From contig NZ_LSIC01000127.1 of assembly GCF_001556045.1 (NCBI RefSeq), positions 1-16,760 of the forward strand: DNA of 16,760 nt, given 5' to 3'. Positions 179 to 8,767 of this stretch are shown here, piece after piece. The translations under genes were made by a program, and so were the position numbers. The notes beneath the pieces are model-generated. The model ran no database searches. It had not been told where the DNA came from and worked only from the letters and a program-made list of their open reading frames with translations. Each line of letters begins with the position of its first letter. Positions within the stretch are counted from its first letter, which is position 1. This DNA is from Bradyrhizobium sp. CCH5-F6. GTDB lineage: Bacteria; Pseudomonadota; Alphaproteobacteria; Rhizobiales; Xanthobacteraceae.

Positions 179-544
179 TCAGGTCAGGGACTTCGGTGGG
201 GGCGGATCGAGACCGCGCACGGTGTCGGTCAGAGGGGCCGTCGCCCGGATGAGGACCGCCACCTTGGGTTCCATCACGGTCATGACCTGCTGCGGAGGCG
301 CTGCGACGGAGACCGCGAAGCAGCCATGGCAGTGATGGTCGACGATGGCACCAGTCTCAGGGCCGCTATCGGGCTTGGTATCGACCATCCAAGCCACCGG
401 GGAACCGGCAGGATTGGTCACGTCGAGGTCGAGACACCGATGCAGCGCACCCGACATCAGATAGGTCACGATCAGAAATACGGACACGATCCCGCGCAAA
501 GCAGGAATATGCCGAAATCCAGATCTGATCCGACCAATCGTCAA
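179..544 (-). CDS. Small membrane-anchored HCHGC protein, copy 1
   Basis: A product of about 121 residues and unknown function. It has a basic N-terminus, one hydrophobic segment (about residues 15-37, ALRGIVSVFLIVTYLMSGAL), a motif reading His-His-Cys-His-Gly-Cys-Phe near residue 71, and the tail RGLDPPPPKSLT. The predicted layout is a signal anchor or uncleaved signal with the Cys/His motif outside the cytoplasm. I chose TTG at 544-542 because it aligns with the only possible start of copy 2 and gives equal lengths; GTG at 553 and TTG at 589 are alternatives. Copies 2 and 3 lie at 2178-2546 and 8405-8767. The outer-membrane channel gene follows after 54 nt. The Cys/His motif suggests binding of a soft metal, which is inference. 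The layout loosely recalls DUF2946 proteins, but membership is not established. Confidence 0.8.
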   Translation of the reverse strand: MTIGRIRSGFRHIPALRGIVSVFLIVTYLMSGALHRCLDLDVTNPAGSPVAWMVDTKPDSGPETGAIVDHHCHGCFAVSVAAPPQQVMTVMEPKVAVLIRATAPLTDTVRGLDPPPPKSLT

Positions 545-609
545 TGACCACACTCTACGTTCGCGAGTTGGTAGGTAGCATGGGCACAAGGCTCACGTCG
601 ACCCGCAAT

Positions 610-615
610 ATTATA
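610..615 (-). promoter_or_regulatory. Candidate -10 element for HCHGC copy 1
   Basis: The minus strand reads TATAAT, a perfect consensus -10 hexamer, 66 nt upstream of the chosen TTG start of copy 1. No good TTGACA-like hexamer sits at the normal spacing. Instead an inverted repeat occupies the -35 region, which would fit an activator- or repressor-dependent promoter. The corresponding place upstream of copy 2 is recognisably related but lacks the perfect hexamer. Confidence 0.45.
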
Positions 616-632
616 ACAATCCCAAACATTTG

Positions 633-649
633 TTGCGTGCCACTCGCAA
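633..649. promoter_or_regulatory. Inverted repeat TTGCG-N7-CGCAA, candidate operator
   Basis: TTGCG (633-637) and CGCAA (645-649) are exact inverted arms around a 7-nt spacer. The centre lies about 29 bp upstream of the TATAAT at 610-615, so a bound protein would cover the -35 region of that promoter. The MarR-type regulator encoded at 1383-1913 is one candidate ligand, but nothing in the sequence proves it. Five-bp arms can occur by chance. Confidence 0.3.
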
Positions 650-6900: not shown

Positions 6901-7226
6901 ACGGTGACCTGGCTTAGCCCGTATCTGGACAGCGACCGTGTGTATTGGAGGTTCGGTAGCCCACCCATGCCGGTTTCGACTGGAAACGTGATGCGCTGTT
7001 CGACTTCCAGAGGCGAATAGCCCGCCGCGCTCACGTTGATCTGCACCTGCACGTTGGTGATGTCCGGTACCGCGTCAATCGGAAGGCGCGTGAAGTTCCA
7101 GGCGCCGATTGCCCCGACTGCGAGCACAGCAAAGAGGACCAGCCATCGCTGGCGGATCGAGAATGCGATTATCGCGGTGATGACGCCGTGCTTCCGGTCG
7201 CCGACCTGGCCCTGCTCAGTGCTCAT
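3978..7226 (-). CDS. czcA: Heavy-metal RND efflux pump, CzcA/CusA family
   Basis: A full-length 1082-residue inner-membrane proton antiporter of the HME-RND class. TM1 is at about 28-46, followed by the first periplasmic loop with [15 protein letters not shown] (48-62). TM4 carries D-F-G-x3-D-G-A-V-x3-V-E-N at 416-430, the signature associated with divalent-metal pumps (Co, Zn, Cd, Ni) rather than the copper/silver CusA type. A second periplasmic loop and a second six-helix bundle complete the duplicated RND layout. ATG at 7226-7224 overlaps the end of the adaptor gene by 11 nt, with AAGGGA 10 nt upstream. The stop overlaps the next small gene as ATGA. The pump draws metal from the periplasm or cytoplasm and passes it through the adaptor and the outer-membrane channel. 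The exact metal cannot be decided from the sequence. Confidence 0.96.
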
Positions 7227-8169
7227 GGGCGGCCGTTCCCTTGGCTATTTCCGCCTTGACGATGAAGCTGTTCCGTCCCACGTACAGGTCGCCCTCCTCC
7301 AGGCCGAACTGCACCTCGACGTGCTCGCGATCGCGAGCACCCAGCTCGACCTCGCGCACCTCGAATTTCAGGCCATTGCGGACGAAGACGACGTTGCGGT
7401 TTTCGAAGCTTTGGACGGCGGTCGATTTGACGACGATCGGCGCGGACTTGTCCGAGAGCATCAGGCGCGCCGTGACGAACATGCCTGGCCTCAGTCTTGT
7501 CCCCTCGTTCGGCACGCTGGTGCGCGCAAGAGCGCTCTGCGTATCCGCGCTGCCGACAGGCGAAATGTAGGTCAGCCTGGCCTCGATCGGCTTCCCGCCG
7601 TCGCCGACGTCGATGACGACCTTGTCGCCTTCCCGCACCCGCTTCAGGTCCCGTCGATAGACGGAGAGGTCGACCCATACGGTGGAAATATCGGCGATCG
7701 TGAAGGCCGTCTTCTGCTCCGACGCGTATTCGCCGAGAGATATTTGGCGGTCGATGACCGTGCCGGCCAACGGCGCCCGGATCTCATACGTCGTGAGACT
7801 CTGGTTGCTCTCGATCTTGGCCAAGAGGTCGTTCTTTTCGACGCGATGACCGACGCTCGCCTTGATCTCGCGGACGAGCCCTGGAAATCGAGGCGTCACC
7901 TGAACGAGAGCCTCCTGATTTGGCTGCAAAATGCCGTTGAGGAGCAGACTATCGCGAAGAACGCCAGGCGCCGCGACGAGGAGCTCTATATCGGAAGATC
8001 TGAGCTTGTCGTCGCTCATTTCGACGCCGTCGGCGTGACCTCCTTCTTCGTGACCATGCCCCGTCTCCGATTGCTTGCCGGAGCTTTGCTGAGGCAAGTT
8101 CAGCAGGAAGAAGCCGATTGCAGCCAGCGCGATCGTGGCCAGGACCGAGTTCGCGAAAAGCCGCTTCAT
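7216..8169 (-). CDS. czcB: RND periplasmic adaptor (membrane fusion protein), CzcB type
   Basis: A 317-residue adaptor. The N-terminal membrane anchor is at about 8-25, followed by a His-rich linker at about 37-46 ([12 protein letters not shown] in part) that could bind metal. The barrel-sandwich/lipoyl region is at about 88-145, with [20 protein letters not shown] and [19 protein letters not shown], typical of HlyD/CzcB proteins. Beta-barrel and membrane-proximal domains follow, and the chain ends AAHEH. The open frame extends to 8268, but ATG at 8169-8167 starts directly at the Lys-Arg plus hydrophobic anchor, so the longer form is rejected. The Shine-Dalgarno sequence there is weak. The 3' end overlaps czcA by 11 nt. 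It links the pump to the channel that begins at 124. A 235-nt gap separates it from HCHGC copy 3, and I see no gene in that gap. Confidence 0.93.
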
Positions 8170-8404
8170 GGCGCGCGTCTCGCTGCACGGGAGGCGCGGT
8201 CGCGCAGCGCCAGGCAAACGAAGGTTCCCAAGCCGCATCGACCGGCCGACGACAAACGCCGCTCCCACGTCTCGAAAACCATGGGCAAAGCGACGAATAC
8301 ATGCGCTCGCGCTTCTCGCGCGGCAGCGATCTCAGATGACATGGAAATAGACCTGCAAACGACGGCAAGAAGACGCACGGATGCGCCGAGCGGGTTCGTT
8401 CAGA

Positions 8405-8767
8405 TCAGGCCTTTGGAGGGGGAGTATCCAATGCGGAGGAGGTGCCGGTCAGCCGCTTCGTCGGCATAGCGACCGGCTTCGTCACGGCCGCAGCGAGCGA
8501 CCAGGCTGCCGTGGCCCGAACGGGCGAGACGGAGAAGCACCCGTGGCAATGCCGTTCGGTCAGAACGCTGTCGCCACCGGTCGTGCTTCCCAGACCTGCA
8601 GTCGAAAAGACTGTCTCGGTCGAGCCGGAGATTGCCAGATGGTCGATATGGGCACTGTGGAGGACGGCGACGCTCAAATGTCCGAACGCAAGCAACAGAA
8701 CCAGCAGATCGCGCAGCCGGCGAAGGAGAGCATTGCTGGTGGCGGCGATCGGCATAACGCGAGGCAA
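8405..8767 (-). CDS. Small membrane-anchored HCHGC protein, copy 3
   Basis: A 120-residue divergent paralogue of the products at 179-544 and 2178-2546. An N-terminal hydrophobic helix (about 18-36, LRDLLVLLLAFGHLSVAVL) is followed by HSAHIDH, then RHCHGCFSVSPV at about 72-83, and the tail SALDTPPPKA. The conserved points across all three copies are the single helix ending in V/A-L-H, the H-C-H-G-C-F-x-V-S core and the L-D-x-P-P-P-K tail. The start may be TTG at 8767 or ATG at 8755-8753 (Met5); neither has a strong ribosome site. It is the first gene upstream of czcB on the same strand, as copy 1 is for the outer-membrane gene. The function is unknown; a periplasm-facing metal-binding helper of the exporter is the working idea. 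Confidence 0.8.
   Translation of the reverse strand: MPRVMPIAATSNALLRRLRDLLVLLLAFGHLSVAVLHSAHIDHLAISGSTETVFSTAGLGSTTGGDSVLTERHCHGCFSVSPVRATAAWSLAAAVTKPVAMPTKRLTGTSSALDTPPPKA

Follow-up and report, generated by a model that had tools for sequence, protein, structure and literature searches.

The window analysed here is a stretch of 16,760 nucleotides (nt) from Bradyrhizobium sp. CCH5-F6 (contig NZ_LSIC01000127.1, positions 1 to 16,760). It carries three related open reading frames (ORFs), all on the minus strand and all with TTG as first codon, which encode proteins of 121, 122 and 120 amino acids (copies 1, 2 and 3) having an HCHGC motif and a C-terminal PPPK. We regard these proteins as cis-acting, metal-responsive arrest peptides of the CutF kind, encoded by upstream ORFs (uORFs), and give this reading a probability of roughly 0.7. 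The reading is preferred because the spacing between the two motifs is fixed, PPPK stands at the end, the uORF is located 5' of the gene for an outer-membrane channel, and an anti-Shine-Dalgarno (anti-SD) string at the uORF stop codon is matched to the Shine-Dalgarno sequence (SD) of the next gene. A CutF-like leader-peptide switch, in a variant with HCHGC and a resistance-nodulation-division (RND) pump, is probably the best account. For the same reasons an earlier note on this DNA, in which the proteins were taken as helpers of the exporter, is probably wrong on that point. Its wording of an 'undescribed component' is also too strong, since the features match the published CutF and CruR kind of leader peptide.

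The three copies and their relatives

The kinship of the three ORFs, first proposed from their shared motifs, was confirmed. An alignment of copies 1-3 gives L34-H35, HCHGCF.VS and LD.PPPK as invariant, where '.' means any amino acid, and by eye each of them shows a hydrophobic N-terminal helix ending at LH. Identity to copy 1 is 50% for copy 2 and 25% for copy 3. The likeness is not due to chance, because copy 3 as a tblastn query recovers the copy-2 orthologue in a locus of a Bradyrhizobium metagenome-assembled genome (MAG; locus L001, E 5e-10). Copies 1-3 gave no family above threshold in Pfam and NCBIfam.

One protein search yielded 47 relatives. A scan of genome contigs confirmed 115 relatives, of which the best 80 were retained; these loci were picked by the peptide HHCHGCF, and the invariance of HCHGC in the 80-locus set is therefore by construction. 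By record label the 80 loci are mostly Bradyrhizobium, together with Afipia, Rhodopseudomonas, Nitrobacter, Tardiphaga, Methylocapsa, MAGs of the same order and one 'Frankia'. A relative of copy 3 (E<=1e-6) is present in 122 of 265 genomes of the genus. In the three genome searches scoring was limited to 15, 12 and 16 candidates per genome, where 12 applies to the search with the channel protein and 16 to the genus search with copy 3. A phage setting was rejected, as the viral_contigs set gave 24 pattern matches and 0 relatives, and so was a plasmid setting, with one plasmid match for copy 1 and none for copy 3.

Motif spacing and conservation

Spacing was scored in 129 sequences, i.e. the 47 proteins, 79 of the 80 loci (L013 was left out) and the three window copies. 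HCHGC and PP[KR] are 39 residues apart in 98 sequences, 40 in 30 and 41 in one (standard deviation 0.45), and the sequence ends exactly three residues past PP[KR] in 122 of the 129. The linker from the helix to HCHGC is variable, covering 25 to 43 residues with a standard deviation of 2.07. When distant members are included in an alignment of 23 sequences, only C, C, P and P are invariant, with at most one gap column between the CxxC and PP motifs. The length between the motifs is thus kept and the letters are not, which suggests that the stretch between HCHGC and PP acts as a ruler rather than as a folded domain.

Conservation of the Cys and His residues, as expected by the earlier note, was found in part. 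The two Cys are kept, whereas the metal motif varies in the channel-first census described below (HCHSC, HCYVC, DCHGC, HCPTC, YCSAC). The constant of the wider family is CxxC and not HCHGC, CxxC itself being demanded by the census script.

A stand-alone membrane-anchored or periplasmic helper of the RND pump, whose mature protein binds metal and either delivers or senses it, would be consistent with the hydrophobic N-terminal helix, with the site of two Cys and two His kept among close relatives and with pump genes adjoining in nearly all loci examined. The near-exact motif spacing, the end fixed three residues past PP[KR], the reduction to C, C, P and P in the broad set of 23 and the covariation of the stop-codon anti-SD with the SD of the next gene make such a helper quite improbable.

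Linkage to RND pump genes

The association with heavy-metal RND pumps inferred in the earlier note is borne out by the relatives. The next ORF on the same strand is one of about 420 amino acids after 89 of 92 uORFs, at a distance of 53-73 nt, and three of these ORFs, sampled from close and distant groups, are channels of the outer-membrane efflux protein (OEP) family according to Pfam. The 92 uORFs comprise 78 of the 80 loci and 14 others, some genomes being present twice (L074 and L094 look alike). Adaptor matches were found in 77 of the 80 loci and RND matches likewise in 77 of 80.

The channel-first census was made to offset the HHCHGCF selection of the 80 loci. Here 149 genomes of the family were queried with the channel protein; 47 matched, with 57 places listed, 50 of which were examined. 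The criteria for accepting a uORF were CxxC, a PP close to its end and a stop no more than 330 nt away; such a uORF was found upstream of 44 of the 50 OEP homologues, in a set that overlaps with the 92 uORFs above. In all 44 census uORFs CxxC lies 38-40 residues before PP, though 30-60 were permitted.

Predicted pairing of the uORF tail with the next Shine-Dalgarno sequence

A short GC hairpin follows the uORF stop and is itself followed by the SD; the six base pairs of this hairpin are each conserved in 75-80 of the 80 leaders. The uORF tail is complementary to the next SD in copy 1 (CCTGACCTGA with TCAGGT) and in copy 3 (GGCCTGA with CAGGTC). For these two copies an SD-masking stem-loop is predicted, with covariation across relatives; copy 2 is without such an SD. 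Single-strand folding predicts for 85 of 94 leaders that the SD pairs with the region of the uORF tail, and the mean SD pairing of 0.93 compares with 0.76 for shuffled leaders (L001 and L061, where no start was found, were left out of this set). The predicted SD-to-tail pairing of copy 3 is 1.00, with a mean of 0.91 for its shuffles and 2% of them as high. Deleting the tail of copy 1 lowers predicted SD pairing from 1.00 to 0.62. The tail is also predicted to bind the SD more strongly than the majority of windows within its own uORF, having a median rank of 0.17 and lying in the best 5% in 25 of the 94 leaders.

Within close relatives the RNA signal is weak. Covariation of anti-SD and SD emerged in a set that took in more distant relatives, with the tail window lengthened to include 10 nt beyond the stop. 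In 56 leaders the mean energy is then -12.36 kcal/mol for matched and -10.39 for permuted pairs (standard deviation 0.30; 0 of 2000 permutations), and in 25 dissimilar leaders it is -12.07 against -10.16 (0 of 5000). In six leaders the channel start had been re-assigned to an ATG behind a GGATC string, which favours the covariation result; with these six excluded, the remaining 50 gave -12.09 and -10.64 kcal/mol (0 of 5000). Before the re-assignment, with the six starts probably wrong, the means were -11.3 for matched and -10.1 for mismatched pairs. Among 16 positions of the tail window, the strongest pairing and the strongest covariation both fall at the stop codon, where z is -4.9 for all 50 leaders (next best -3.0) and -3.8 for 24 dissimilar ones (next -2.7, in an overlapping window). 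Of 15 leaders that have GGATC before the start, 12, forming one group of relatives, carry TGATC[CT] at the stop, against 2 of 41 others.

The distant uORFs of the same order (L099-L106) have PPRA or PPRD as their last residues before the stop. Five of the eight (L101-L104, L106) carry the string TGACCTGA starting with the stop codon, and in many Bradyrhizobium uORFs it ends with the stop (L-T-stop). The RNA string TGACCTGA thereby seems to outlive the reading frame.

Several observations weigh against a leader-peptide switch. After deletion of 24 nt of tail the mean predicted SD pairing is still 0.77, compared with 0.93 before, and it drops to less than 0.5 in only 4 of 94 leaders; copy 3 starts at 1.00 and stays at 0.96. 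When the tail is restricted to its 18 coding nt in the 94 leaders, the synonymous-codon null stands (p<=0.05 in 2 of 94, median 0.31), and matched and mismatched tails are alike at -9.3 and -9.5. The CAGG class on its own gives marginal covariation (266 of 5000), the start in six of the 12 TGATC[CT]/GGATC cases was chosen by the GGATC string, and the permutation tests do not fully remove relatedness. RNAalifold on 80 leaders detected the inner hairpin only, because mafft aligned two SD registers out of step, and few pairs change on both sides in the alignment counts. Six of the 50 channel homologues examined had no uORF under the census criteria. Copy 2 keeps its motifs and hairpin while its SD is absent. 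The proline motif of CutF alone gave no stall in a LepB fusion, by the available part of PMC9973294. Finally, the stall, its metal dependence, the direction of the response (metal as the on signal) and the ligand are read from sequence.

Comparison with known systems

Statements on published systems are taken from the available parts of PMC9973294 and PMC9426467. CutF, of the Rhodobacter capsulatus cutFOG operon, resembles the copies in being the product of a short uORF with a Cys metal motif, a C-terminal polyproline and an SD-masking stem-loop, the latter predicted here for copies 1 and 3; CutF is exported, for which the N-terminal helix of the copies is a putative counterpart, and it needs CxxxC, the C-terminal proline motif, the cis position and the stem-loop (PMC9973294). 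The two differ in motif spacing (45 residues in CutF, 38-41 here), in the metal motif (CxxxC against CxxC, as HCHGC) and in the next gene, a multicopper oxidase for CutF and an RND channel or adaptor here; the pump in the window is probably of the divalent type, and there are three copies per island. The likeness is one of described features. As for the filter used for CutF-like proteins (under 150 amino acids, PP in the last 15 residues, an N-terminal signal peptide, next gene on the same strand at less than 1000 nt), copies 1, 2 and 3 are 120-122 residues long and end in PPPPKSLT, PPPPKSLT and PPPKA, and the hydrophobic helix seen by eye is a candidate signal peptide. Copy 1 lies 54 nt from the OEP gene, copy 2 lies 264 nt from a MarR gene, and copy 3 lies 62 nt from an ORF of 58 amino acids and 235 nt from the adaptor gene. 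Reportedly there are 5,334 CutF-like proteins, with OEP genes of RND systems as the commonest neighbour (PMC9973294), and the HCHGC/PPPK family may well be among them. For such proteins 29 similarity clusters have been published (PMC9973294). No description of an HCHGC/PPPK family was found in literature titles and abstracts at partial coverage, and it may stand in the lists of the CutF paper.

CruR (BP2923 of Bordetella pertussis, PMC9426467) and its family DUF2946 (PF11162) share with the copies CxxC, a near-constant spacing, a C-terminal PP and a place at the head of a metal operon. They end in RAPP, unlike the DPPPPK or DTPPPK of the window. In DUF2946 the distance from CxxC to the last PP is 46-49 residues in 15 of 19 ORFs and 43 and 54 in two, and two have no CxxC; 19 of 25 loci were used, leaving out L114, L121, L122, L125, L128 and L133. 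The loose resemblance to DUF2946 mentioned in the earlier note stands as a faint one. Membership was rejected as sub-threshold: the profile has no match for copies 1-3 at E<=1 and gives weak matches for 4 of the 23 wider members (best E 0.0021), and the profile-profile probability is 2.7%, with alignment at CxxC.

In CruR, CxxC and RAPP are 45 residues apart and act via Rho; five additional residues between the motifs strongly weaken the copper effect, and replacing the export signal had no effect (PMC9426467). A nascent chain that governs Rho-dependent termination between uORF and pump, and not access to the SD, would agree with the CxxC and C-terminal PP at near-constant spacing common to DUF2946 and CruR. 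The leaders here are short, 53-73 nt against 162 nt for cruR (PMC9973294), and covarying SD pairing suits translational control, so that this alternative appears unlikely, though Rho termination and SD access could act together.

CzcI of Cupriavidus metallidurans, a small protein encoded before czcCBA and CutF-like according to PMC9973294, leads a pump as copies 1 and 3 do. In the available part of that paper it is described as having no C-terminal proline motif, unlike the copies, and is set apart here on that description. SecM and related Sec arrest peptides are exported nascent chains whose stall unmasks the next SD (PMC9973294), like the proposed switch. SecM monitors protein export and not metal, which the switch would sense. 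To our knowledge there is no CxxC in SecM and related Sec arrest peptides.

Proposed mechanism of the switch

In the resting mRNA the last codons of the uORF and its stop would pair with the SD of the next gene around the GC hairpin and keep that gene off. The masked gene would be the channel gene for copy 1 and the adaptor-coupled 58-residue ORF for copy 3. While the uORF is translated, the N-terminal helix would contact the membrane or the Sec machinery. With the ribosome at PPPP-K, three codons before the end, HCHGC (CxxC) would be about 40 residues back and just out of the exit tunnel; it is this distance from the putative stall motif that would place the site near the tunnel exit or in the translocon, and the extracytoplasmic setting given in the earlier note is tentative. 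Metal bound to HCHGC (CxxC) would strengthen or prolong the polyproline stall, and the stalled ribosome would cover the anti-SD, leaving the SD free and allowing the pump parts to be translated. For copy 1 this would be the channel, and for copy 3 the 58-residue ORF followed by the adaptor via their ATGA overlap.

History of the island and state of each copy

The three-copy island was also found in the Bradyrhizobium MAG mentioned above (G004; L001 and L091), in G546 (L205) and in G589 (L204); G004 and G546 may be the same organism. In the window the channel gene is cut after 41 residues, and in L204 and L205 complete OEP, adaptor and RND genes follow. Copy 1 leads this complete run there, and therefore copy 3 leads a second, channel-less pump unit; both loci have the channel-less unit first and then the complete one. 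G001 has a related island (L089), in which two complete units stand in tandem and a stray uORF lacking an SD is followed by a FlgF gene. A tandem duplication, after which one channel was lost, would account for the layout of the three-copy island. In L089 the FlgF gene comes after the uORF at 10978-11298.

The ratio of non-synonymous to synonymous substitution rates (dN/dS) between the window and L204, based on few changes, takes values of 0.23, 0.50 and 0.27 in copies 1, 2 and 3 and of 1.15 in the 58-residue ORF; that of copy 2 is the highest of the three copies in a further comparison also (0.36). Copy 1 is the standard uORF-channel unit, and the earlier note was correct in placing it before a part of the exporter. 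For copy 3 this is less exact, since the 58-residue ORF, which overlaps the adaptor start, is located between copy 3 and the adaptor gene; copy 3 retains the RNA pairing ahead of this ORF. The 'MarR regulator pair' reported after copy 2 is a MarR gene followed by a methyltransferase dependent on S-adenosylmethionine (SAM), and copy 2 would be either a relict or re-used for MarR.

It is quite possible, if somewhat short of an even chance, that copies 2 and 3 are non-regulating left-overs from tandem duplication of a uORF-OEP-adaptor-RND unit and that only copy 1 is active, which is compatible with the leader-peptide reading. The two tandem units and the stray SD-less uORF of L089, the order of units in L204 and L205, the lost SD and highest dN/dS of copy 2 and the SD of copy 3, barely freed by tail removal in the prediction (0.96), all point this way. 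The pairing retained by copy 3 above its shuffle mean, its dN/dS of 0.27 and the motif residues intact in all three copies argue for more than one working switch.

Pump type and likely metal

The RND permease is without the methionine-triad residues of CusA, whose positions we take to be M573, M623 and M672; in the alignment, as we read it, H, V and E stand opposite them. It carries a DFG...DG...EN stretch. IhpABC of B. japonicum is said to export divalent metal ions and to be required for iron homeostasis. Because the permease has no CusA triad and the adaptor is of the IhpB type, the ligand is probably a divalent ion rather than copper, and Zn, Co, Ni, Cd, Fe or Mn would be the candidates.

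Other genes in the window

In order of transcription the island contains a gene called p169 here, copy 3, the 58-residue ORF, the adaptor, the RND permease and a small protein, followed by the FlgF-like protein, copy 2, MarR, the methyltransferase, copy 1 and the first 41 residues of the channel (Table 1).

Table 1. Features of the island, in window positions (aa, amino acids).
Feature	Position	Strand	Remarks
OEP (outer-membrane channel) gene start	1..124	-	first 41 aa, cut at window end
SD of OEP gene, TCAGGT	132..137	-	predicted pairing with uORF1 tail
Inner hairpin GGGCGC-ATC-GCGCTC	153..167	-	leader 1
Anti-SD string CCTGACCTGA	179..188	-	covers last codons and stop of uORF1
uORF1 (copy 1)	179..544	-	121 aa, HCHGCFAVS ... 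LDPPPPKSLT-stop
SAM-dependent methyltransferase	757..1386	-	library scan of 757-1410
MarR-family regulator	1383..1913	-	library scan of 1383-2039
Hairpin GGGACGC-ATCGC-GCGTCC	2148..2165	-	after uORF2
uORF2 (copy 2)	2178..2546	-	122 aa; motifs kept, downstream SD lost
FlgF-like protein	2682..3416	-	neighbour inside island, not part of the switch
Small protein, signal-like N-terminus	3607..3981	-	overlaps end of RND gene; no Pfam/NCBIfam family
CzcA/CusA-family heavy-metal RND permease	3978..7226	-	probably divalent type
Adaptor	7216..8169	-	ATG at 8169; NCBIfam IhpB, 479 bits against cut-off 450; scanned as 7216-8268
58-aa ORF after leader 3	8166..8342	-	TGA overlaps adaptor ATG; no Pfam family
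SD kept in leader 3, CAGGTC	8350..8355	-	pairing predicted
uORF3 (copy 3)	8405..8767	-	120 aa, HCHGCFSVS ... LDTPPPKA-stop
Anti-SD GGCCTG	8406..8411	-	over uORF3 stop

The 58-residue ORF was considered as a channel remnant and rejected, as no convincing match was found. The match of the methyltransferase to L001, L204 and L205 falls into two pieces that lie in separate frames, and the end of the gene thus differs among the island copies. The FlgF-like flagellar rod protein, located within a metal island, is under strong constraint with dN/dS 0.04 against L204. The p169 gene (8952-9461) encodes a small membrane protein with a weak DUF3302 match (E 8e-4, below cut-off); it is upstream of copy 3 in the window and upstream of a uORF-OEP unit in L089. 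A Mutator-family transposase at 9789-10781 is split in one frame into two ORFs by a stop at 10301-10299, and its start may lie in an ORF of a different frame (10498-10947), so that the transposase is probably inactive. Pieces of a non-homologous end joining system, namely the C-terminal portion of an ATP-dependent DNA ligase and a pair of overlapping partial-Ku ORFs, occupy 11201-11788 and 13665-14884.

Implications

There are at least two cases, CutF (PMC9973294) and CruR (PMC9426467), in which the sensing of copper by a nascent chain has been elucidated. A wider proposal is put forward tentatively, with chances a little under one half. The order of Bradyrhizobium would hold a lineage of arrest-peptide sensors for divalent metal and not copper. 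In these sensors a ruler of 38-41 residues from CxxC to PP, together with SD/anti-SD pairing over the uORF stop, would set the translation of whole RND exporters, and duplicated uORFs would re-use the switch for separate pump halves (channel, adaptor and perhaps the MarR regulator). The family is compact and offers defined residues and base pairs for mutation. If the proposal is true, it would suggest that ribosomes serve bacteria in reading metals other than copper too, and a layer of translational control would be added to the Ihp/Czc-type exporter in many relatives of Bradyrhizobium.

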